IMG/VR virus record: IMGVR_UViG_3300032282_001765
Span: 1 to 41,123 of that record
Reading direction: 5' to 3' (one strand)
Length of the DNA stretch: 41,123 bases
DNA from: a virus
The position numbers and the translations under genes were made by a program. Shown one piece after another: positions 11,503 to 29,837 of this stretch; position 1 is the stretch's first letter; each line of letters begins with the position of its first letter. Under the pieces are notes generated by a model. It was not told where the DNA came from and did no database searches. It saw nothing but the letters and a program-made list of their open reading frames with translations.

Positions 11503-11635
11503 TTTTTTATTAGTTCCATTAATTTTACTAGCTTTAATGGTTTTATGTGCTATTATACAAGTTGAGCTAAAAACTCGATTTAAAGGGAAGACGAATCAGC
11601 CCCGATTGAAGTCTGGTTCTAACGTTAAGGAGTAA
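11480..11635 (+). CDS. Small single-pass membrane protein, 51 aa
   Basis: A 51-aa frame beginning inside the end of the previous gene. Residues about 7-26 (ISFLLVPLILLALMVLCAII) form a strong transmembrane helix, followed by a basic cytoplasmic-type tail (LKTRFKGKTNQPRLK). It ends six bases before the DUF2815 ATG, and its last codons supply that gene's AAGGAG ribosome binding site. Function is unknown. Confidence 0.55.
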   Translation: MAYYTTISFLLVPLILLALMVLCAIIQVELKTRFKGKTNQPRLKSGSNVKE

Positions 11636-11640
11636 TAGAT

Positions 11641-12159
11641 ATGGCAACAACAAATAAAATTAAAATTGTAACTGGTAAAGTACGTTTCTCATACGCGCAT
11701 GTATTCCAACCAAATGCTGCAGTTGAAGGCGGAACACCTAAGTATTCAGTATCATTGATCATTCCAAAATCAGATACTGAAACAGTTGCTAAGTTTCAAA
11801 AAGCTTTTGAGGATGCGGCAAATACAAACGCGGCGTTCTTTGGAGGTGCAGTACCAAAAGGTTTAAAAGGTGGTTTACGTGACGGTGACGCAGAAAAAGA
11901 TGATCCAGCATATGCTAATTCATTCTTTGTAAATGCTAACTCAGCAAATAAACCAGGTGTTGTAGATGCAGAGATGCAAGCTATCATAGACCCATCAGAG
12001 TTCTATAGTGGTTGCTTTGGACGTGCATCAGTAACATTATACCCATACAATGCTCAAGGCTCTAAAGGCATTGCAGTAGGTTTAAATAATGTTCAAAAGA
12101 CAGAAGAAGGCGAAAAACTAGGTGGTGGTACGTCTGCCGCAGTAGATTTCGCAATTTAA
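11641..12159 (+). CDS. DUF2815 ssDNA-binding-like protein, 172 aa
   Basis: A DUF2815 protein: GKVRFSYAHVFQP near the start, KYSVSLIIPKSD, DGDAEKDDPAYANSFFVNA, then EFYSGCFGRASVTLYPY and GIAVGLNNVQK are the family landmarks. Family proteins are about 170-190 aa, have an OB-fold-like pattern and are thought to bind single-stranded DNA. The gene lies just after DUF2800 with a good AAGGAG ribosome binding site and ends at a strong terminator, so it may be highly expressed. Confidence 0.9.
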   Translation: MATTNKIKIVTGKVRFSYAHVFQPNAAVEGGTPKYSVSLIIPKSDTETVAKFQKAFEDAANTNAAFFGGAVPKGLKGGLRDGDAEKDDPAYANSFFVNANSANKPGVVDAEMQAIIDPSEFYSGCFGRASVTLYPYNAQGSKGIAVGLNNVQKTEEGEKLGGGTSAAVDFAI

Positions 12160-16909: not shown

Positions 16910-17311
16910 TTAGCATTTCCAACGTTTTAATGATGCTGCTTTTCTTGTAGGTCTGCCTTGCTCGTCCTTCATAGGACCCTTCATACCAGACATTCTCGCA
17001 CAAAACGATTCTTTACGAGCGCCGCCTTCTGGTTGTGGTGCTTTTAAATGACTGCCTGTTTCTCTATTATATTTTTCACGACCCTTGGCAGTTAAGCCCG
17101 CACCTTGAGATACAGGTAATTTTTCACCACGACCTACGGCTAGAGATGGCCCACCTTTTTTCATAGGCTTTGCGGTCTTTGCTGACTCTTTAAAATTCTG
17201 TGCAGTAGGTGCTCCTTTAGATCCAACCTTACGCATACGCTCTCCACTACCTTCTGCAATACGTTTTTGTTTAGCGTGGATATTTGCATATAGTCCTGGT
17301 TTTGTTGCCAT
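16910..17311 (-). CDS. Basic conserved phage protein (DUF6321-like), 133 aa
   Basis: A very basic protein. GLTAKGREKYNRETGSHLKA then GGARKESFCARMSGMKG and DEQGRPTRKAASLKRWKC are a signature I associate with DUF6321, a conserved marine-phage family of unknown function. The family name is from memory. Cysteines are at the end and in SFCARM. It is the last gene of the leftward arm, and its stop lies 1 bp from the PolA stop. The ribosome binding site is AGGAGAATAATT. A DNA- or RNA-binding or virion-internal role is plausible. Confidence 0.7.
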   Translation of the reverse strand: MATKPGLYANIHAKQKRIAEGSGERMRKVGSKGAPTAQNFKESAKTAKPMKKGGPSLAVGRGEKLPVSQGAGLTAKGREKYNRETGSHLKAPQPEGGARKESFCARMSGMKGPMKDEQGRPTRKAASLKRWKC

Positions 17312-17321
17312 AATTATTCTC

Positions 17322-19742
17322 CTAATTATAATCTTTAAATGGTGATTTACCTTGATCCATAAGGCGTTGTGCTTCTTTTCTTGCGTGTTTTAATAGTGCT
17401 CGTGCATCAGGGTGATCAGCTTCAATAAGGCCTGCTTCAAAATCTTTTACTCTTGATATCATATCAGGTGTCATGTTTTGAGTGATCATTGGATAGAAAG
17501 GTTCATCTGGAGTATTACCACCTAATGATAACTCTGTCATAACATCACCTGTTAAGGTAGGAATCTCACCTTGCCAGCCTGATGTTTTAGGCATCATTTG
17601 ACCGTGGTATTCGCCAGACTCATCTTGCCATGATCTTAATCCATATGGATTAGGATAGTTAGTAGCTTTTAAGCCACCATGTCTAGGATCTCTTTCTGTG
17701 ACTTTACCACCATCTGCAAATTGTTGCGTAGGTGGTTTAGGTAAATGGTTTTCTTTTATATGATCAATTAAATCATTAACGGTAAAATAATGCATATTTT
17801 TATTTTGTAATTCTTGAACTATATTAAGAATCATATCTTTTTTATTATTTGCGTCTTGTTTAGCCCAAGCGTTAATTTCTGGAACTGAGTTTGCATTTTT
17901 CCAAGCTTTATCATGTTCGGGATAAGCTAATTTTGCAGCATCTTTAAAATGAGGATCATTAATTATCAGATCGGCAAATTTATTACCATGATCATAAGCA
18001 TATACACCTTTTGATTTTACATCTTTAGCACTAATTAAATCAGTATTATATAATTCACCTATATCACCATAACCCCCAGATACCGTTGGTTTGTTTATAA
18101 AATCAGATATATAAGACTGGTATTTATCTAAAGGTTTTTTATTTTCTTTACCTTTAACTTGAGCTATATCATAAGTATCTAATTCAGGAAACATTTGTCT
18201 TGCCACATTCGCAAAATCTTTAGTGGTTCCATTAGATCCATGAATTTCTTCAAGTAATGCTGCTGCACGTTGCTCTCCCATAACATTGGCAACATCACTA
18301 AATACTATTGGTTTTTTATTAAGTTCTAAAGTTACATGAGGTTTATTATTAGCATCGCGTAATGAAATAATTTTTGTATCACCATTTATAACATTATTAA
18401 AATAACGATCACTGCTTCCTACACAATGCCCCATTTGATTACCTTCGGATTGTAAAGCTTCCTTGGTAATATTATCATTAGAAGGGTGTTTTAATTCTAT
18501 CCATTTATAACTATCGCCATATTCTTTATGAACAGGCATGCCTTGAATTCTATCAACGTCTGCTTTTTCTGCTATTTTAGCTTTTTCTGCATCATATTCT
18601 GATGTGCGTTTAATAGCTTTTTCTATAGACATCTGATTAAGTTGTTCGGGTCTTAAACGACCATTTTGTAAATCTTCATAAAGAACATCAGATACGTGGT
18701 TAAGACCTAATTTGTTTGGTAAATCCATATACACACTATGAACTTTTTCATCAGGTATATGATGAATTAATGAGATAGCTTCTAAATCTTGACTATTATT
18801 AATAGGAAGATCATGCTCCATACGTAACATCGACATTTTGTATTTGTCAGCCGCATTTTTATACCCTTCAGTGTAATCAGGCATATTTTTATTTAAAATA
18901 TCTTTAATGTCTTGAGATTTAACTATATTAAATTGTGAGTCAACTTTATTTTCCCAAGCCTTACCTGCTTCAGTTTTTGCAATACCTTCTAAAGGTTTGC
19001 CAGCTTTCATTCTTTCACGTTCTGCATAATTTTTTGCATCGTGGGCAACTTCCCCATGATTATATTGAACACCTTCATCAATAGCTTTTAAAATAGGATC
19101 ATCTTTTGAACCTAATTGATTACGTAAATATTTTTTAACTTTTGTATCAATCCAACCATTTAGTGCAACAGCATGAGGATCTTTTGGGGCAGTATCTGTG
19201 CGTATACTTTCAAATGTAGCCCCTGGTCTTTCATTTACTTGCATATCGCGCAATTGATTAGTTAATTCTTTTTCACCGCCAACCATCATACCACCAGGGT
19301 CTTTGACAATGTTCATACGTGGATCAAGCATATTGCGACCAAGGAATCCCGTGCCTGTTTCTATTTGTCTTGCGGCTTCTCGAACGGCATTTTTACCTAC
19401 ATTAGATGCAAGTTTTGTAGCACTACCTACCGTTGGTATTAAGGCAGCTACGTCTATAACTCTAGGATCAACGGAAGTTGTTTGGATGTTTTTGGTATTG
19501 CGGAATATTGGAGCACCATAACTTACATCTTCTGCAAGTGACTGTGTGCCTTTGAGTCCACTAAGATCAGCAAATGTTTGACCACCGATGAATGGGATAT
19601 GTTTATTTAAAGCGTAAACATCTGTTGCGTTTACTGCGGGTTTTAATACATCAGCTATTGAGCCAAAAAAATTATTTCGCGGAGTTTCTTTAAGTACATC
19701 CGTTTGATTTACATCTCCGCCCCCTTCAAAGGCGGGAACTAT
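17322..19742 (-). CDS. PcfJ-like large protein, likely expressed as a frameshift fusion
   Basis: The frame is open from 19742 to 17322 (806 codons) but has no ATG, GTG or TTG until ATG 19331. The coding sequence before that ATG (IVPAFEGGGDV, ... KHIPFIGGQTFADLSGLKG) is clearly protein-like. It is therefore most likely entered by a -1 shift from the 274-aa gene upstream, giving a 1080-aa fusion. A segment with EGNQMGHCVGSSDRYF then KIISLRDANNKPHVTLELN (Cys codon 440 of this frame) matches the PcfJ-like domain. A GG box (QFADGGKV) occurs near the C-terminus. It is probably a virion-internal ejection protein. Internal initiation at 19331 has no good ribosome binding site. Confidence 0.7.
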   Translation of the reverse strand: MVPAFEGGGDVNQTDVLKETPRNNFFGSIADVLKPAVNATDVYALNKHIPFIGGQTFADLSGLKGTQSLAEDVSYGAPIFRNTKNIQTTSVDPRVIDVAALIPTVGSATKLASNVGKNAVREAARQIETGTGFLGRNMLDPRMNIVKDPGGMMVGGEKELTNQLRDMQVNERPGATFESIRTDTAPKDPHAVALNGWIDTKVKKYLRNQLGSKDDPILKAIDEGVQYNHGEVAHDAKNYAERERMKAGKPLEGIAKTEAGKAWENKVDSQFNIVKSQDIKDILNKNMPDYTEGYKNAADKYKMSMLRMEHDLPINNSQDLEAISLIHHIPDEKVHSVYMDLPNKLGLNHVSDVLYEDLQNGRLRPEQLNQMSIEKAIKRTSEYDAEKAKIAEKADVDRIQGMPVHKEYGDSYKWIELKHPSNDNITKEALQSEGNQMGHCVGSSDRYFNNVINGDTKIISLRDANNKPHVTLELNKKPIVFSDVANVMGEQRAAALLEEIHGSNGTTKDFANVARQMFPELDTYDIAQVKGKENKKPLDKYQSYISDFINKPTVSGGYGDIGELYNTDLISAKDVKSKGVYAYDHGNKFADLIINDPHFKDAAKLAYPEHDKAWKNANSVPEINAWAKQDANNKKDMILNIVQELQNKNMHYFTVNDLIDHIKENHLPKPPTQQFADGGKVTERDPRHGGLKATNYPNPYGLRSWQDESGEYHGQMMPKTSGWQGEIPTLTGDVMTELSLGGNTPDEPFYPMITQNMTPDMISRVKDFEAGLIEADHPDARALLKHARKEAQRLMDQGKSPFKDYN

Positions 19743-19748
19743 TTTTTT
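19717..19748 (-). promoter_or_regulatory. Candidate -1 programmed ribosomal frameshift signal
   Basis: Reading leftward: CTA AAA AAA TAG has the slippery heptamer A AAA AAA at 19748-19742, next to the in-frame stop (19741-19739). After a 6-nt spacer (TAGTTC), a hairpin occupies 19735-19717. It has five GC pairs (CCGCC with GGCGG) plus two G-U pairs and a 5-nt loop. Slipping back one base gives AAA ATA GTT CCC and enters the 806-codon frame exactly. An assembly error in the run of seven A would give the same fusion, so sequencing evidence is needed. Confidence 0.65.
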
Positions 19749-20563
19749 AGATAAACAGGCCCTCCATCGGCTTTATGTTTCATCATTTTATCCAAGCGCA
19801 TTTTAATAAGTGGAGCTGTTGCACCAACACCAAATTCTGCTGCCCTAAGCATAGGAGGTTGCCAAGGAAATGTTGATGCTGCGGATCCGAGAGCACCTAA
19901 TCCACCAATAATTGAACGGCCATAATTACCTCTGTTCCAATCATTATAAGCCTCTACACCTTCCGCACCTGCCATAGGCAATGTTACTAAAGGAGCTAAT
20001 GATTTAGTTATTGGATTATTTAAAATTGGAGAAACTTTTGATGAAATAGAAGCAAATTTAGATGCAGGTTTAGCTGCAGCTTTTAATTCTTCAACAGTAG
20101 CCGTAGGAGTTATAACTCTACGATTACCCTCAATCATAAATCCAGGAGCTGGTTTTTTTGAAAGGCCTAAATGAAGATCATTTGCTAAAGTTTGATCTAC
20201 ATTATGTACTGCATTTTTTACAGCACCCATACCAAAACCATGTTCTGATACAGCACCCAAATTACTACGCGCAATATCATTAGCTTCTTGAAGCATAGCA
20301 TTTTTATCTGCCATATATTTAAAGAAAGCTTTAGCAGCTACTGTTCCACCACTTATTCCTGAAATTGGTTTTGCAACTTCCCAACCAGCTAAAGCACCAG
20401 CGTATGGACTAGTAGCATGAAAAGGTTGAGCTGGAATAGCTGGAGGAGATTCTATATCTTTTTCAGAATCAGGAACTCTTGTATTATTTTCTGAAATTTC
20501 AGCTTTAGGACTTAGGTTATCCGTTGCTAAATGATCAGGAACTATTTCGTAATTATCAGCCAT
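19739..20563 (-). CDS. Virion-associated protein, 274 aa (upstream part of frameshift fusion)
   Basis: The N-terminus is polar. The middle has amphipathic and hydrophobic helices with small residues (PLVTLPMAGAEGVEAYNDW, GRSIIGGLGALGSAAS). The C-terminus ends KHKADGGPVYLKK, containing the GG box seen in its neighbours. The stop lies in the slippery site described above. Its ATG overlaps the stop of the transglycosylase gene, so they are translationally coupled. It is likely an ejection (internal virion) protein. As a separate product it may coexist with the 1080-aa fusion. Confidence 0.7.
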   Translation of the reverse strand: MADNYEIVPDHLATDNLSPKAEISENNTRVPDSEKDIESPPAIPAQPFHATSPYAGALAGWEVAKPISGISGGTVAAKAFFKYMADKNAMLQEANDIARSNLGAVSEHGFGMGAVKNAVHNVDQTLANDLHLGLSKKPAPGFMIEGNRRVITPTATVEELKAAAKPASKFASISSKVSPILNNPITKSLAPLVTLPMAGAEGVEAYNDWNRGNYGRSIIGGLGALGSAASTFPWQPPMLRAAEFGVGATAPLIKMRLDKMMKHKADGGPVYLKK

Positions 20564-22776
20564 TATAAATACACCCTATCTCCATTACTTAATATAGTAT
20601 ATGGTCTTTTATTTTTATCAGCATGAATATACCCTGGTTTATTTTTAGAAGGATCTGCATAAATCTCAGGTACTCCAGCATCTTTAAATATTTTACCTAC
20701 AATTATTTTAGCTTGATCTCTTGCAGCTTTATAATTAGGGGACATTTCAAAATCTGATGTAGTAGCATTTGGATTTTTTTCATGGAAGTCATGCCATCCT
20801 TTAGCACGAAGTTCCATTATTTTTGCAGTTTCCATATTGTGAGCTAAATTATTCATATGAGCATCATATGTCATGTCTGTACCAACACCTTTTGCAAGAG
20901 ATCCTAATTTTAAGTCCGCATTAGTTAATCGATTACCACCACCATTAGATACTAATTGTTTAGCCCAAGCCCCTGTTGCATTGGCAGAACCTACTCCAAT
21001 ATTATGGTAAGCCGTTTGATTTTCTGGACTTTCTAATTGGATAAGTTCAGCATTTGGAGATTGAAGATGTTCAGCACCCCCTGGTTGTAATTTTTTACCT
21101 AGCCAATAATTAACTAAACTTTGTCCTCTAAGATTAAATACAGCATGATGATTTTTAGATGCTTCTAATAAATTATTAAAGTTACTAAAAGCACTATCAG
21201 CAGAATTATAATCTGTATCATATTCTTTACGTTTTGCAGCTTCATTGGTAGACTGAGCTTCACTTGCTTTGGCTACTGTTTGGGCATTAGTTTCAGCCAT
21301 TTTTTTATATTGAGCATCATAAACTTCGCGTGCTTTTTGTTTTTCTGTTTTTAATGCTTCTAAACGGGCACTATAAGATGCCGCTGTTTCATTTGCAAGT
21401 GGATGTTTTTCTTCAGGAGTAATAACCGTTGAAGGAGGATCATAAGGAACCTCTTTAATTGGGGAGCTTTGTGAAGATATTCCTACACCAGGAGAAGCCG
21501 AAGGCATTGTAATATTCTTTTTATTATCAATTGACTGAGATGGTTTGACTATATTATCTGTAGCAGAAGTTAAATGAGCTTTAGCTATATAATCTTTAGT
21601 TTCTTGAGGTATTTTACTAATGTCTGCACCATTTGCAAGCCATTTATCAACATTACCTGGACCCCAATTTTGTGCCATAGAAGCTAATGTATCATTTTTA
21701 TATTTATCTTTCATGGCGTTAAAATATTCTGTTCCTACACGTACACGTTCAGCTTCGTCATGAACAGGATCACCATTTAATTGAGCAGGTTTAACTCCAA
21801 ACCCCGGATCTGTAGCTGTTGCATCCATTACTTGCATGGCACTTTTAGCTGAACCTTGACCTGAAACTTCTGGACCTACTGCAAAAGGTCTATTTCCAGA
21901 TTCTATTTGAGCAATATGTTGTGGTTGAATCCCAGTTTGATTTGTAGGAGGAACTGCAGTAGCTGGTTGGGAAGGAGCAGTAGCATTATTAGAAATAGGA
22001 AGATTAGGTAAATTTGATTCATCATAATTTGCAGCTTTAGATAATGGAACTTGAATTAATCCACGATCTTTATCCATTACGTTAACAAGTTCTCGCATCT
22101 TAGGACTATATTCAAGTTCAGATTTAGCTTTATTAGTTTGCTCAAGTAATTTACCAATATACGCTTGCGCGGCCGCAGGGTCTCTGGCATTTAGATTTAA
22201 AATGTATTGTACTGTTTGAGCATCAAAACCTTTGTTTGTTAGAGCAGTACCAAGTGATGCATTATCTACGCCACCAGCACCGCCTGCGTTATTAGTACCT
22301 CCAGCACCACCAACTCCTAATTGACCATAGACTTGATTACGTATGACGTCTTGTGTTGATTGAGCTGATTTTAGGGCTGCCATCTGAGCACGAACGGATT
22401 GAAGGTCTTGCATTTCTTCTAATTTTTGTTTATCTCTCTCGTTCATGGCGCGTGTAAAGTTACCGTCCATGTTAGATACGCCCCATGCTGCGGCGTCTTT
22501 AAGATGACTTTGAATTTTATTGAAAGGGCTATTTCTTTCATCTAAATACTTTTGCATATTACTAAGTATCTCTTGAGAGTTTGAAGAATCTAACGCCACA
22601 TTACCATAATTAAATCCACCCTTTGTAGCAGGGGACTTAACGTTAGTTAATCCTCCGGTAGGTGTCTCTTTAGTGGAAGTATCGTTTTGTGATTTTTCAG
22701 ATCCAAAAGAAGAAAGCGCTAAAGTTAATGGACTGGTAATGCCTGAAATAGAACTAATGATGTCTTCTAAAGCCAT
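20563..22776 (-). CDS. Internal virion / ejection protein with SLT transglycosylase, 737 aa
   Basis: Residues about 285-400 match the lytic transglycosylase fold: QIESGNRPF with catalytic E292, AKSAMQVMDATATDPGF, ERVRVGTEYFNAMKDKY, and AQNWGPGNVDKWL. The rest is Gln/Ser/Asn-rich and helical, suiting a structural protein. It is analogous in role to T7 gp16-type proteins that cut the peptidoglycan during DNA entry. The ATG is preceded by TTAAGGAAATTAA. It lies among other ejection-type proteins, before the frameshift pair. Confidence 0.85.
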   Translation of the reverse strand: MALEDIISSISGITSPLTLALSSFGSEKSQNDTSTKETPTGGLTNVKSPATKGGFNYGNVALDSSNSQEILSNMQKYLDERNSPFNKIQSHLKDAAAWGVSNMDGNFTRAMNERDKQKLEEMQDLQSVRAQMAALKSAQSTQDVIRNQVYGQLGVGGAGGTNNAGGAGGVDNASLGTALTNKGFDAQTVQYILNLNARDPAAAQAYIGKLLEQTNKAKSELEYSPKMRELVNVMDKDRGLIQVPLSKAANYDESNLPNLPISNNATAPSQPATAVPPTNQTGIQPQHIAQIESGNRPFAVGPEVSGQGSAKSAMQVMDATATDPGFGVKPAQLNGDPVHDEAERVRVGTEYFNAMKDKYKNDTLASMAQNWGPGNVDKWLANGADISKIPQETKDYIAKAHLTSATDNIVKPSQSIDNKKNITMPSASPGVGISSQSSPIKEVPYDPPSTVITPEEKHPLANETAASYSARLEALKTEKQKAREVYDAQYKKMAETNAQTVAKASEAQSTNEAAKRKEYDTDYNSADSAFSNFNNLLEASKNHHAVFNLRGQSLVNYWLGKKLQPGGAEHLQSPNAELIQLESPENQTAYHNIGVGSANATGAWAKQLVSNGGGNRLTNADLKLGSLAKGVGTDMTYDAHMNNLAHNMETAKIMELRAKGWHDFHEKNPNATTSDFEMSPNYKAARDQAKIIVGKIFKDAGVPEIYADPSKNKPGYIHADKNKRPYTILSNGDRVYL

Positions 22777-23828: not shown

Positions 23829-24667
23829 TATGCAATTCCTCCAGCTCTATGTGATGCTACTGATAAGTACTCTAAAGCACCTTTACTATCGGGTGGTAAT
23901 TCTTTTGGGTCATGCGATTGCTTATGCTCACGAACAGTTTGAAGTAGCTCATCTAAAACCTTAGAACCGCTGTCACTGCTACCATTACCAAGCGCTGATA
24001 CTACGTCAGCAGGAATAACAAACTCACCGTTAGCAAGCATAGCAGGAACGCCGTCTGATGTTCCATCACCATCGCCTTGTACATAACGATGTTGTATTCC
24101 ACCCTCGCTATAGAATTCAGGATTATGTTCAATCTCACCACCTTCAGCATATGTTTCTGCTTTAACTGCAGGCATCGTAGAACTTAATTGTTCAAAATGT
24201 GGACCTACGTGGTGGAAAAGATCAATAGGGGAAAATGAGTAACCTTGAGAAATTTGATGTTGGAAGGATAAAGGTCCGCCTTTAGCGTACCCTTCGATTA
24301 GACCACCTTGTGCTACATAAGATAAAGGACCCGATGCAGAATTAGTTAATTGAGGTGTTACATTAATACCTGTGCCTAAATTAATTGCGCCTGAACTACC
24401 TTGAGTTATTTGTGGGGTTAAACTAGATTGGAAGAAACCACCGTTCCCACCACTTCCACCGCCGCCTGAACCGCCACCACCACCACCACCACTACCTCCA
24501 CCAGGAGCACCCGTTGGGGTATCTCCGAATAGTTGGTTACCTAAAGATAGGGCTCCGTTAGCAACGCCAAGACCTGCGGCAATACCGCTTAATCCTCCCA
24601 TTGCTGCAACGCCGCTACCTATAGCACCAGCTACACTAGCTACTGCACTACTTACAAGTCCTGACAT
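23828..24667 (-). CDS. Glycine-rich virion protein with DGVPAMLxxGEFVIP motif, 279 aa
   Basis: The N-terminal third is hydrophobic and Gly/Ala-rich (SAVASVAGAIGSGVAAMGG) followed by a long Gly/Ser run. Several GG boxes occur (YAKGGPL, YAEGGEI, YSEGGIQ). The C-terminal DGVPAMLANGEFVIPADVVS is a motif widely seen in tail and ejection proteins (PAMLTPGEFV type). It is probably a membrane-interacting ejection or structural protein. It overlaps the cupin-SET gene by 16 bp. Confidence 0.7.
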   Translation of the reverse strand: MSGLVSSAVASVAGAIGSGVAAMGGLSGIAAGLGVANGALSLGNQLFGDTPTGAPGGGSGGGGGGGSGGGGSGGNGGFFQSSLTPQITQGSSGAINLGTGINVTPQLTNSASGPLSYVAQGGLIEGYAKGGPLSFQHQISQGYSFSPIDLFHHVGPHFEQLSSTMPAVKAETYAEGGEIEHNPEFYSEGGIQHRYVQGDGDGTSDGVPAMLANGEFVIPADVVSALGNGSSDSGSKVLDELLQTVREHKQSHDPKELPPDSKGALEYLSVASHRAGGIA

Positions 24668-25533
24668 TTATCTATCCCATCCCATAAATTATTTATTTTC
24701 ATAACTTGCCTGTAGTCTAAGGTAAGTTCTTCTCCTAATTGCCCGCCAAACATTCCGTGTATGTCCCTTGACGCTACTAAGAATGCATCACCACTAGGGT
24801 AGATGACGGCAACCGTGTTCGGTGTCTTTGAATGATTAATTAAGTATCCCGCTGGCGTTCTTTTTCCGTTCAAACGCATAGGAGCAATTAATTCATCTTT
24901 CTTTATTGCTGCGCTAGAAAACATTCCCTTGCCCTGTATGGGTGAATTACCTGGTGCTAATTTATAGTTACCGTAAGGAAATGGAATTCTATCCTCCATA
25001 TTACTTGCAGCCTCGTGGACTTGTTCTTTTGTCCATCCAGTCTGTTTGAGCATTAATTCAAAATCGTTGCGATCTTCTTCGTGCTCAGGATATTCTTTTT
25101 CTAATTTATTCTTTAAAAAATCTTTAAAGAATTGTGGTACATCAAAAATAGCTTCTTCTATTTTTTCAACATCTGTTTCTGTGGTGGCATAAATATTTTG
25201 CCAAACTACATCTTCCAACGTAAGTCCAGCTTTGCTGCCTTCTTTTGCAACAAACATAAACGGAGCTTCTAACGTAACAACTTTTCTATCATCAGCTATA
25301 ACATTAATCTTGCCTCTAAGTAGCATGTTAATGTGCTCGCCTACGTGCTCCATACCCATAAGAAGTGAGTTCTTCTCATAGTGAGCCTCTCTTATGTAGA
25401 CTCCTGGACCAAATCTGTGTATTACAGAATTGTAGGTCTGTGGGCCTTTTAATATTTCTTTTGATATCTCATGTCTACCTTCTACGGTAGTTAAATCATA
25501 CTGCTTCTGTTGTTCTGTAACATTAGTCGTCAT
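24652..25533 (-). CDS. Cupin-SET domain fusion, putative protein lysine methyltransferase, 293 aa
   Basis: Two parts. Residues about 35-125 look like a cupin: PGVYIREAHYEKNSLLMGM, GEHINMLLRGKINV, EAPFMFVAKEGSKAGL. Residues about 185-280 carry SET hallmarks: GKGMF (201-205), NHSKTPN (233-239) and GEELTLDY near 270, corresponding to the SAM-binding GxG, RxxNHxxxPN and ELTxDY motifs. No pre- or post-SET cysteines were seen. It follows a conserved GCATTAGT element and is the first gene after it, ahead of the ejection proteins. A virion or Lys-rich protein could be the substrate, but this is inference. Confidence 0.85.
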   Translation of the reverse strand: MTTNVTEQQKQYDLTTVEGRHEISKEILKGPQTYNSVIHRFGPGVYIREAHYEKNSLLMGMEHVGEHINMLLRGKINVIADDRKVVTLEAPFMFVAKEGSKAGLTLEDVVWQNIYATTETDVEKIEEAIFDVPQFFKDFLKNKLEKEYPEHEEDRNDFELMLKQTGWTKEQVHEAASNMEDRIPFPYGNYKLAPGNSPIQGKGMFSSAAIKKDELIAPMRLNGKRTPAGYLINHSKTPNTVAVIYPSGDAFLVASRDIHGMFGGQLGEELTLDYRQVMKINNLWDGIDKCQDL

Positions 25534-25592: not shown

Positions 25593-25853
25593 TTATTTGT
25601 TAGGTTTTCCGTTAATAATTAACACAAACTGATGAGCCCAATCCTGCCAAGTATTGTATAATTCAGGGTTTGGGACCATATAGCTTGCAAAAGACGGTAA
25701 TTCAGAAATGTCCCTAGCTGTATTTATCCAATTAACCTCATCAGAATAAGGTATTGGTTCTTGTCCGTAGTACATCACAAGGTTACCATTAAAGTTTTCC
25801 CATGTTGTGTACTCAGGTAAGAATGGGAATACTGACTGTGCTAAGTTAGCCAT
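25593..25853 (-). CDS. Hypothetical virion-associated protein, 86 aa
   Basis: An 86-aa protein with many Trp and Tyr residues (PFLPEYTTWENFNGNLVMYY, then ELYNTWQDWAHQFVLIING). ATG overlaps the stop of the tail protein gene (TAATG). There is no membrane segment. The family is not recognised, though its position between the large tail protein and the cupin-SET promoter element suggests a tail or connector accessory. Confidence 0.6.
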   Translation of the reverse strand: MANLAQSVFPFLPEYTTWENFNGNLVMYYGQEPIPYSDEVNWINTARDISELPSFASYMVPNPELYNTWQDWAHQFVLIINGKPNK

Positions 25854-28564
25854 TACGGACGCTCGTCACCGTACTCTGCGGTAATAAGTAAACGTCCCAT
25901 TTCATAATTACCACTAAGTTCATTAGACTCAAATTGTAGTCTGACCTCACGATGTTCAATCCTTAGATCTATTTTTTCTGTGTTCTCATTAAATGTGAAT
26001 GGCCCTGAGTTCTCTATCGGCCCACGTGCAAACTTACGACCATAGATAGTCATATTAATATTGCCCGATTGTACAAAGTCTGGCTCAAGCCTACGTAAGT
26101 GCATACGTCTATTGACACCAACGGCCGTATCCTCAGAAGGTGTTCCCCCAACCCAGCTAATGTCGCAGGTTGTGAATGATGAGTAGATTGCATCCTCTTG
26201 AGTAAGAGATACTTTATTTAATCCTATTTCGTGTTGCCAAATTGGGAAACCACCAGAGATGATATAAACCACGGTGCCCGCAGTTAAAATAGCAGGGAAT
26301 ACTGTTGATGTATTCACAAGAGTGTACCCAATTAAGCTAGTGTCTGTGTTTGTAATATATGGTGTTGTTGAGGCAGACATGGTTTGAGATGCAAAAGTTC
26401 CGCCAACAGAAACTACCCAAGAATTAACTGAACCACTAACAATTCTACCTAAAGAAGTTCCGTCAGCAGCCACAACATTCATACCTACTAGCAATGCAGG
26501 GGATCCTGTGGTAGTTAACGCAGTGCCTGCGCACGAAGCGGAAGTAAGAGATATAGATGAGTAAGTACGTACGTAACTGCTAGAACTAATTAAGTACTTA
26601 GTTGCCGTAGGATCAAGATTACTTAGTGTTACGTATTGCCCTGGGGAGAACTTAGCTGTTTGATCTCCAGCCACATAAAATTGAGATGTCGTTGCGGCGG
26701 GCGATATGGACGCTGACATTGTTTGTGATGCGTAAGTGCCACCGATAGTTACAACCCAAGAATTACCTGATCCACTAGAAATGGTTCCTAAAGAGGTTCC
26801 GGTACTTGATAAAATGGTCATACCTATTATGAGTGTTGGGAATCCTGTGGTAGTGAGCGTTGTTCCCGAGCATGATGCTGTAATAGAAACCGTAGTAATG
26901 GTTGAAGTTGAGAATCCGTAAGAAGAGGTTAAGTTCCAATCAGCCCACACAGGTGTTGGGAATACTTCGGTTGTGTATCCACTTGATCTTTGAGCACCCT
27001 CGGCCTGTCCTGCGTCATACCAAATCTTATCTTTTACATTATATATAATTGCGTCAGTACACTCTGATGCGCCACCACGAGGGTAGAAGAACCAAATTTC
27101 ATTATACCTAGGAACCTTAGTTGCCCATACTTTTTGGCGTTGTGAATAATTTAGATTATCAAACAGCCAATTAACGTTTTTGTCATTTGGTAATACGTTA
27201 ACTTGACCATTGTAAACATAGAATCTATCTACTCCCATCCAGAAATATAGACCGTCCATTTCAACAACGGCGTTAGATGACATGATAGAGATTTGACTTG
27301 AGATAATGTCATACTGCCAATATGTAGGAGGATTGTTGACAAAAGACACACGAATTAAACTGTCTGTTGCCCAAAATAATCCTGAGGGTGAAGAAGTACC
27401 ACCACGTACGGGCATACCTTTTACAATTTTACCTGTGGCAACGTTAACCTGATTAGCTAACGCACCATTCCAATCAGCTAAGTTTTGATTTGCGTAAACA
27501 GAGCTAACGTTATTATTAGCAATAAATCCGTTTGATCCATACACAAACACAAACGGGTGAAGCACGCAAACACCACCATCAACAGTAATAGGCCTATAGG
27601 TAGGGGCCGTTCCTGATGTGTCAGCTAGTCCTGTAAATGTCCATTCGTTATATGCATTAGGAACAGTAGATCCAATAAATACTTGAGAAGTTACACCACT
27701 ATCAATGTTAGATAAGTTTTGTCCTGGGTGAGCTACTAAATTTAAAATACCACCAAGAGGAGCGTACTGAAAATCAAACTGCCAAAGTAAGTTTGCGTTT
27801 GCTGTAAAATTAGTATTATCTAAGTATGCAGTATTAATAACTGTACCCGCTGGTACAACCGGAGTAAACGTAACAGTAGTTGTTGGTGTTGTGAATGAGG
27901 ATGATGCTACGGTGTATATCGTTGGATTAGTAGATTGCTGTGTTGATACGGTGCCTGTTCCAAGACCTGACGTAGTACCGATCGCCGATGTAAATGTATT
28001 TCCTACTGCGTACGTAACACTTGATGTTCCAGCTATAGTATTCCATTGTGCGTTTGTGGTCGTACCTAAAGATAGGATTGTGTATCTTGTACCTAAGGTC
28101 AGTGCAGTTACGTTTACAGTTAATGTAAATACAATCTTAGTGCCTGCTGTGAATGTGCTGACTAAACTAGTAGACGGTGTTGAAATTGCAAATGTGTTAG
28201 TAGTATTACTGGCTGGTGTAAATGGCGCGTAACCTACATTAAACTTAGCAGGGTAAGGTCCACTACCTACACCTAATGATTGACCTGTTGTAAATACATC
28301 AACGCCCGTTGAGTTACCGCCAAAAATATAATTAACGCCATTGTAGGCGTTCATGGTCATACCACGAATAATACCGTTGAATGTTGATGATATTTGATTG
28401 TACCCTCCCATTTTCTTTGGGGTACCACGTTGGAATCTACACCAAACACCATCACTGTACTCACGAGCCTCAAACATAGTACCATCACGTTTAATCCCTG
28501 GCTGAACGCCTAGGGTATAAATTTGACTGTACTGCGGGTTTGCTTGTTGGACTTCACCCACCAT
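25853..28564 (-). CDS. Tail accessory / DNA-stabilisation protein (P22 gp10-like), 903 aa
   Basis: A long beta-rich protein. Early residues (GIKRDGTMFEAREYSDGVWC then KKMGGYNQI) and blade-like segments (VFVYGSNGFIANNN, SGLFWATDSLIRVSF, DGLYFWMGVDRFYVYNG, KVPRYNEIWFFYPRGG) recall beta-propeller tail proteins such as P22 gp10. A duplicated, about 65-residue Ser/Thr-rich insert is present. The ATG at 28564, one base after the previous stop, is more likely than the GTG at 28591, which would overlap. It probably belongs to the tail hub or plug. Family assignment is by appearance only. Confidence 0.7.
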   Translation of the reverse strand: MVGEVQQANPQYSQIYTLGVQPGIKRDGTMFEAREYSDGVWCRFQRGTPKKMGGYNQISSTFNGIIRGMTMNAYNGVNYIFGGNSTGVDVFTTGQSLGVGSGPYPAKFNVGYAPFTPASNTTNTFAISTPSTSLVSTFTAGTKIVFTLTVNVTALTLGTRYTILSLGTTTNAQWNTIAGTSSVTYAVGNTFTSAIGTTSGLGTGTVSTQQSTNPTIYTVASSSFTTPTTTVTFTPVVPAGTVINTAYLDNTNFTANANLLWQFDFQYAPLGGILNLVAHPGQNLSNIDSGVTSQVFIGSTVPNAYNEWTFTGLADTSGTAPTYRPITVDGGVCVLHPFVFVYGSNGFIANNNVSSVYANQNLADWNGALANQVNVATGKIVKGMPVRGGTSSPSGLFWATDSLIRVSFVNNPPTYWQYDIISSQISIMSSNAVVEMDGLYFWMGVDRFYVYNGQVNVLPNDKNVNWLFDNLNYSQRQKVWATKVPRYNEIWFFYPRGGASECTDAIIYNVKDKIWYDAGQAEGAQRSSGYTTEVFPTPVWADWNLTSSYGFSTSTITTVSITASCSGTTLTTTGFPTLIIGMTILSSTGTSLGTISSGSGNSWVVTIGGTYASQTMSASISPAATTSQFYVAGDQTAKFSPGQYVTLSNLDPTATKYLISSSSYVRTYSSISLTSASCAGTALTTTGSPALLVGMNVVAADGTSLGRIVSGSVNSWVVSVGGTFASQTMSASTTPYITNTDTSLIGYTLVNTSTVFPAILTAGTVVYIISGGFPIWQHEIGLNKVSLTQEDAIYSSFTTCDISWVGGTPSEDTAVGVNRRMHLRRLEPDFVQSGNINMTIYGRKFARGPIENSGPFTFNENTEKIDLRIEHREVRLQFESNELSGNYEMGRLLITAEYGDERP

Positions 28565-28565
28565 G

Positions 28566-29837
28566 TTAGAACGTTCCGCCTGTGATACCACCTGTCGCTG
28601 TAAATGCTGCCGCTGTTGTTATTTGAAGAGCTGACGTATTAGTGCCGTCTAGTGTCATCATGTTTGTACTATTAGCAGATAGTCCTAGTTTACTTGTACC
28701 TACTAAGTACATACCTGAGTGAATATCAGTTGTAAATGAGAAACCTGGGAGTGATACTGTTCCAGGAAGCGCTTGGAATGTTGATGTGGTTGATTGTGTA
28801 ATTGAATACATTTGACCAGCATCAACCACAATAGTTACCACGCTATTTGCGGCGAGTGTTACTGTTGTTCCTGCTCCAGAGAATCCTGAGATACCAAAAA
28901 TAATACTGTACGCTGATGAGGATGACTGATTAATAAGAACATATAATTGTGTAATATTAGGAAGAGTAACTGTTAAGTTAGTTGTTCTTGTTCCTGATAA
29001 TGCTACGTACGTTTGAATAATTGGAGCGTTAGATACTAGACTTAATGAACTACCTGAAATGGAGTCCATGTCATATGTAGCAGAAGAGAACGTTACATTA
29101 TTTGGTGCTGTCCAACCCACGGTAAAGAATCTGTTTGCCCCAGAATCAAATAATATAATACCTGAGTCGCCTGGGTTTGTTGTTATACTTGAAACACCAT
29201 TAAGTAATGCAGGGCTTGTTGTTTGAATAGTAAGCGTACCCGTACCCGCATTTCTAAAGCTAATAAACCAACCTGATGATAAAGAAGATCCTGCAGGAAG
29301 TGTGTAAGTACCCGAACCGCCAGTCCACACAAATGTTGCTGCTCGGCTTGTGTCTGTGATAGAAGGAGCTGATGAAACCTGAACAATGTTACCCGTGACT
29401 GCTAGTTTGCCAGCGATCGTTGTAAGACCGTAGCTCATGAGTGACGCAGCGTCAGCGGATGATGTGCCAGCACCAAACGTTACATTTTCCCAAATACCAG
29501 CGGATGATGTATTATTAGATAGGTAAAAATAAATTGAAGTACCCGCAGTAACAGTTACACCTGCGCCACCTGAGAAGTTAGTAACCGTGAATGAAGCAGC
29601 ACCTAAGTTTCTAATAAGTACGTCAGTACCTACGGAGCCTTGATTAGCCTCAGGTAGAGCAATAGAAAGACCTGCGGTTGATGGAGTGCAATCCATAATA
29701 CGGGCCGCAGGTACTTGCGTTGGGTTAACAACAGCAGGCCAATAGAGCATTTGATTAGTAGAGAAATCTAAGGCGTAGTACGAAACGTCCGTTGGTTCAA
29801 CAACGGTTCCAGTAAATGGTGAGGTAAATGTAGGCAT
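28566..29837 (-). CDS. Tail protein, Ser/Thr/Gly-rich beta structure, 423 aa
   Basis: A beta-rich protein with many short Ser/Thr/Gly strands (FTVTNFSGGAGVTVTAGTSI, TLTIQTTSPALLNG) typical of tail appendages. The N-terminus (PTFTSPFTGTVVEPTDVSYY) and the C-terminal GG-rich end are not domain-diagnostic. It lies between the connector genes and the large tail protein, so a tail fibre or tail-tip role is likely. The next gene starts just after its stop. Confidence 0.65.
   Translation of the reverse strand: MPTFTSPFTGTVVEPTDVSYYALDFSTNQMLYWPAVVNPTQVPAARIMDCTPSTAGLSIALPEANQGSVGTDVLIRNLGAASFTVTNFSGGAGVTVTAGTSIYFYLSNNTSSAGIWENVTFGAGTSSADAASLMSYGLTTIAGKLAVTGNIVQVSSAPSITDTSRAATFVWTGGSGTYTLPAGSSLSSGWFISFRNAGTGTLTIQTTSPALLNGVSSITTNPGDSGIILFDSGANRFFTVGWTAPNNVTFSSATYDMDSISGSSLSLVSNAPIIQTYVALSGTRTTNLTVTLPNITQLYVLINQSSSSAYSIIFGISGFSGAGTTVTLAANSVVTIVVDAGQMYSITQSTTSTFQALPGTVSLPGFSFTTDIHSGMYLVGTSKLGLSANSTNMMTLDGTNTSALQITTAAAFTATGGITGGTF

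Follow-up and report, generated by a model that had tools for sequence, protein, structure and literature searches.

Is the break in reading frame between two long open frames of this virus the trace of a lost base, or a place where ribosomes are programmed to change frame? The window, by which we mean all 41,123 bases of the IMG/VR virus record, carries the junction gene on its minus strand, and the bases quoted in the first-pass annotation are accordingly the reverse complement of the window. Re-reading that strand recovered the 274-codon zero frame (20563..19739) ending CTA AAA AAA TAG before a GC-rich hairpin, as had been described; its product, a putative ejection or internal virion protein (hereafter the N module), ends ...KADGGPVYLKK. 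Frame analysis likewise confirmed that the -1 frame (19742..17322, minus strand) is open for 806 codons, and that its first ATG, GTG or TTG is the ATG at 19331, codon 138, which leaves 137 codons before it with no start. Slippage by a single base at A_AAA_AAA would join the 274 and 806 residues into a fusion of 1080 aa, with the junction peptide ...VYLKK/IVPAFEGGGDVNQ...

Anatomy of the proposed slip site

The site reads 5'-CTA AAA AAA TAG TTCCCGCCTTTGAAGGGGGCGGAG-3'. The slippery heptamer (19748-19742, minus strand) is in frame with the upstream gene and abuts the zero-frame stop, TAG (19741-19739, minus strand). TT and the palindrome CCCGCCTTTGAAGGGGGCGG follow directly; the latter would form the GC-rich hairpin (about 19736-19717, minus strand), 5-6 nt past the heptamer and within the 5-9 nt spacing of structures that stimulate -1 frameshifting, a role predicted here from the sequence. 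The 25 nt past the stop are 64% GC, as compared to 39.5% across the window. When the 59 nt that start with the heptamer are folded, the minimum-free-energy structure (-13.8 kcal/mol) contains 8-10 pairs, and its core stem (about 19735-19717) is set off from the heptamer by about 6 nt, in agreement with the hairpin and spacer noted at first. In the junctions of the three phages described below, the hairpin energies range from -10.6 to -13.8 kcal/mol, only moderately beyond those of dinucleotide shuffles (z -1.3 to -1.8, with -1.55 for the 59-nt fold of the window and -1.81 as a further value). In stability, the hairpin of the window is in the top 0.25% among 4,874 32-nt segments of the late genes. 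An in-frame A_AAA_AAR occurs at 3 of the 5,687 codon steps of 11 window genes. A second in-frame A_AAA_AAA in the N-module gene (about 20159) was rejected as a site because the -1 frame closes there after 7 codons. A possible Shine-Dalgarno-like GGAGGG (19760..19765, minus strand) lies 11 nt upstream of the heptamer; it may be an element of the site but is strong only in the window, the position being occupied by GGCGGT in L002 and by GGTGGG in L014, so that its conservation is weak.

Glycine boxes of the form KxGGxV...F[AE][DG]GG recur in several late proteins of the window, of L002 and of L014, and the frameshift falls between the two halves of one such box.

Conservation of the junction

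Two relatives, L002 and L003, emerged when the -1-frame product was used as a protein query, the best segment being 69% identical in amino acid sequence to the window. In L002, a 299-aa frame ends ...GGLTHLKK and is followed by TTA AAA AAG TAG and then by TCCCCGCCTTTGAAGGGGGCGGAG; its -1 frame, of 614 codons, begins VVPAFEGGGDV. L002 and L003 are identical over 13.8 kb and come from two metagenomes. A search with a DNA pattern brought in a third phage, represented by L014, L015 and L018, with ATA AAA AAA TAG, the same hairpin, and a -1 frame of 461 codons that begins IVPAFEGGGNV. The conservation set is thus made of three lineages (the window, L002/L003 and L014/L015/L018), all of them metagenome assemblies. 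The A-run has 7, 6 (followed by G) and 7 bases in the window, L002 and L014, respectively, and in each case forms an in-frame A_AAA_AAR directly before TAG; a heptamer of the X_XXY_YYZ type is therefore present in the zero frame of all three phages, the position of the stop is identical, and the hairpin is invariant. The stem never varies among the three, and hence offers no covariation.

The closest relatives thus keep the slippery site, the stop and the hairpin, and none has an uninterrupted frame. Among 2.9 million IMG/VR viral contigs, a frame-blind search for the pattern PAFEGGG-V matched only these frameshifted loci and no continuous-frame junction, and the cassette was absent from the 84,980 bacterial and archaeal genomes searched. 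A looser pattern (slip site, stop, VPAF), used as a negative control, gave nine other loci, none of them flanked on either side by a pair of long frames as here; we regard all nine as chance matches. A further A6-TAG site, in L013, was rejected because it lies inside an ordinary gene. Other searches left the set as it was: the N-module query P0001 found no relatives at the sensitivity of that search, the N module of L014 led back to its own phage and to a truncated copy but to nothing else, and the upstream gene returned the same phages and no further ones. Nor did the tail domain widen the set, this C-terminal domain being free-standing in many other phages; the sequence of L006/L017 begins within the cargo, so that the junction is not visible there.

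At the nucleotide level, a block of about 32 nt, AAAAAARTAGTYCCCGCCTTTGAAGGGGGCGG, is nearly invariant in the three phages, while both flanks have diverged. This cassette holds CCC, GCC, GGG and GGC, four codons that are rare in these genomes of 38-40% GC, and the chance of drawing its six-codon set from the codon usage of each phage, assuming independence, is 3e-5, 7e-6 and 2e-5. Inside the cassette all four rare codons are kept in all three phages; at identical residues outside it, the same codon is kept in 0/6 cases for CCC, 0/9 for GCC, 2/11 for GGG and 4/22 for GGC. Simple conservation of the same codon is unimpressive alone (p 0.03-0.2), because common codons often agree, and it is the rare-codon test that is informative. 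Retention of the rare codons together with divergence of the flanks indicates that the signal is conserved beyond the needs of the protein. Conservation in two diverged phages, and not the stability of the hairpin alone, provides what we regard as strong sequence evidence for the junction.

The -1 frame also evolves as a protein. L002 and L018 have their first 46-47 -1-frame residues in common, and in the 35 codons past the cassette they differ at 3, 4 and 11 sites in codon positions 1, 2 and 3, respectively. For this stretch, which ends at the first ATG region and on which the selection test rests with L002 and L018 as its two sequences, dN is 0.12 and dS 0.47 (dN/dS about 0.26), and the other frames contain stops. 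Residues 1-137 of the window -1 frame, when compared with L004, were no more similar than shuffled sequence. Judged by the codon-position pattern, with dN below dS, the -1 frame is subject to protein-type selection right from the slip site, before any start codon.

Mechanism and competing explanations

The slippery site, stop and hairpin are kept in the relatives and the -1 frame shows protein-type evolution. A programmed -1 ribosomal frameshift, as first proposed from the window alone, is strongly supported by these features, and on the sequences at hand we consider it highly likely. Ribosomes translating the 274-aa gene would reach A_AAA_AAA (A_AAA_AAG in L002) just before the UAG, where the majority would terminate and release the short protein. 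The hairpin, at the usual distance of a stimulator, would cause a fraction to slip back by one base, both Lys tRNAs re-pairing with AAA AAA, and to continue in the -1 frame to yield the 1,080-aa fusion. Frameshifting would then fix how much of a short protein, putatively for ejection, is made relative to a long form of polyvalent type. The short form is probably an abundant structural or ejection protein, and the long, minority form probably carries polyvalent-type cargo into the next host cell. We infer that it is the ribosome that slips and not the polymerase, with an efficiency that is likewise an assumption, that the virion takes up both products, and that their ratio matters.

The same fusion would arise if RNA polymerase added an A in some transcripts and the ribosome simply read on. 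A-runs are sites of polymerase slippage, and the junction has one. Runs of 6-7 A, however, are short for efficient transcriptional slippage, and those found here have only 7, 6 and 7 A; moreover, the AAG variant preserves the ribosomal heptamer exactly, and the hairpin stands at the distance expected of a ribosomal stimulator. Transcriptional slippage thus seems improbable.

A sequencing or assembly error, in which a base lost from the homopolymer splits an ordinary, continuous gene, had been named as the main rival to programmed frameshifting. The 7-A run of the window is indeed error-prone, and a single-base change would yield the same fusion protein. L002, however, has AAAAAAG and not a run of seven A, in a sequence found identical in two metagenomes; since its run is six A and a G, an error would have to have occurred separately in separate genomes. 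The same break is present in L014, and the stop, the spacing and the hairpin are conserved along with the rare codons. An error is strongly disfavored by the L002 and L014 junctions and we hold it to be very unlikely; the frame break is very probably real and useful.

Equally hard to sustain is the production of two separate proteins, with no fusion, by termination-reinitiation or from an internal start. The stop and the downstream frame do overlap, and ATG codons occur later in that frame (codon 138 in the window, about codons 42-46 in L002 and L014), but none of the three phages has an ATG, GTG or TTG at its stop or close to it. Were translation to restart at a later ATG, the stretch before that codon would stay untranslated, contrary to the protein-type selection seen on those residues, and the slippery heptamer and the hairpin would have no role. 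Lastly, although a frame break is a usual sign of decay, a non-functional remnant inherited by three lineages is scarcely credible, given cargo frames that stay open for 806, 614 and 461 codons, the amino acid identity between the window and L002, and the selection on the -1 frame.

The putative ejection module, its cargo and known systems

The N modules of the window (274 aa), L002 (299 aa) and L014 (286 aa) are homologous, with local scores of 718 for L002 against L014 and of 98 for the window against L002, as compared to a shuffled maximum of 69. The designation of the 274-aa product as an ejection protein, made in the first-pass annotation, is favored by the position of the gene but finds no homology of the protein itself behind it. 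The gene lies among late genes, past a homologue of the phage (P22 gp10-type) stabilization proteins (25853..28591, minus strand; 912 aa), which gives late-gene synteny; in relatives from the phage collection, too, the stabilization-protein homologue is followed by late genes whose function is either unknown or related to the tail. The gene immediately upstream (20563..22776, minus strand; 737 aa) has a PHROG match to a segment of the virion structural/endolysin type and is a relative of the gene that precedes the site in L002. The gene downstream of the cargo (16910..17311, minus strand) carries DUF6321, and in L002 and L006 a similar gene comes after that for the cargo. The N module had no confident match in Pfam, PHROGs or the PDB, and its structure model (pLDDT 32) is unusable; a PDB match to the outer capsid protein VP5* (E 0.0093) was taken as chance. 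Because ejection proteins diverge to less than 10% identity (PMC8954989), the missing match decides little. Gene order and synteny make the 274-aa product a probable ejection protein.

The 806-aa cargo of the window comprises the linker IVPAFEGGGDV, a PcfJ-like domain (PF14284, residues 406-477; E 3.7e-10, 40.2 bits against a curated cut-off of 25), a FADGG box, and a C-terminal domain that is common to the cargoes of L015 and L006 and free-standing in other phages. The polypeptide thus joins PcfJ to a separate domain that is found alone or on other cargo, with no second named enzyme domain. The cargo is PcfJ-like in the window and in L002; L015 has a different domain, which in L002 is a stand-alone neighboring gene (E 9e-31). 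In the L015 cargo, the motif GHEGRHR recalls ParB-like domains; Pfam gave no confirmation of a ParB domain in this cargo, and the motif is a lead only. Distantly related PcfJ proteins are encoded in one continuous frame in L004 (1,403 aa), in L005 and in phage DSL-LC04, where the gene lies between those for the terminase and the portal, so that frameshifting is not needed for the PcfJ domain in general. Whether the cassette of about 32 nt is an exchange joint, which couples a common ejection-type N module to swapped effector cargoes (PcfJ-like, or with the ParB-like motif) and sets a minority of cargo-bearing ejection proteins per virion, is to our mind an evenly balanced matter.

The structure model of the PcfJ core (residues 350-563) is fairly confident and had no significant match in the PDB (best E 0.11); the top weak matches are mostly GNAT acetyltransferases, a possible lead for the biochemistry of PcfJ. 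The tail of the window cargo (17325-17825) is a very conserved domain, ATNYPNPYGLRSW...GKSPFKDYN, that occurs as a lone gene in many phages (L017, L019-L032).

At E. coli dnaX, a downstream stem and an upstream Shine-Dalgarno-like element accompany the slip site, and the shift enters a frame that stops at once. In contrast, a shift of the type proposed here avoids a stop and opens 461-806 codons. The class of heptamer is the same: in E. coli, A_AAA_AAG, the dnaX site, strongly promotes shifting, and A_AAA_AAA reportedly does so less (PMC5009743). Nearly all annotated phage frameshifts are in capsid or tail proteins or in tail assembly chaperones, the last with a joined frameshift gene in 2,397 of 2,476 SEA-PHAGES genomes (PMC10885494), and the phage examples reviewed elsewhere are mainly in tail assembly, capsid and tail proteins (PMC5009743). 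As in T7/T3 gene 10, in the Ig-like C-terminal domains and in lambda gpG/gpGT, a minority product would gain an extra, in some cases movable, C-terminal domain (PMC5009743), but other genes and domains are involved in those cases, and here a large cargo of polyvalent type is placed on a putative ejection protein. Polyvalent proteins are large, multidomain proteins, encoded near virion genes and predicted to be co-injected with the DNA (Iyer et al., 2017; PMC5512222). The proteins described here resemble them in size, in adjoining virion genes and in their exchangeable domains, and the PcfJ-like and similar large proteins beside virion genes fit the idea of injected effectors; the difference is that the cargo would be attached by frameshifting, and neither PcfJ nor frameshifting occurs in that account (PMC5512222).

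In the literature we found one predicted ejection-protein frameshift, in the genome note of Alteromonas phage vB_AspP-H4/4, where a -1 shift from an endolysin frame into an internal virion protein is proposed (PMC5658483). The gp39/gp40 site of H4/4 (Foturvirus; MF278336), as read here, is GTA AAA AAG TAG (L038, 32826-32837), between a 161-aa "endolysin" frame and a -1 frame of 1,795 codons, and phage R8W has the same arrangement (L048, 1972-1983). The likeness lies in A_AAA_AAG directly before TAG and in the long -1 frame, for which the H4/4 annotation gives an internal virion protein produced by -1 frameshift. In contrast to the window, to which it has no detected protein relation, H4/4 lacks a GC-rich hairpin of this kind, as does R8W (the best fold reaches about -4 to -7 kcal/mol), and its short form is annotated as an endolysin; there, too, the frameshift is only predicted. 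The A_AAA_AAG-TAG design was thus already on record, and is found here with a GC-rich hairpin and exchangeable cargo. Judged from these sites, two podovirus groups that are unrelated to each other have the heptamer with UAG in putative ejection genes, and the recurrence in Foturvirus hints at further cases that went unnoticed. Such proteins are split or truncated by gene callers, to which the 137 start-less codons of the window would be lost. If the reading is correct, a conserved frameshift that adds exchangeable cargo to a putative ejection protein might allow a phage to set the number of effectors packed and injected.

In R8W the two frames are annotated as separate genes, and the fusion was missed. 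Elsewhere in the window, the product of 24652-25533 (minus strand) has a C-terminal SET domain (PF00856, E 2.2e-5) and a first half that matches short tail fiber families, an unusual fusion for a phage, and positions 11584-11643 (plus strand) match the Rfam family RF03084, "DUF2815 RNA" (56.2 bits; gathering threshold 41.2), a candidate structured RNA.
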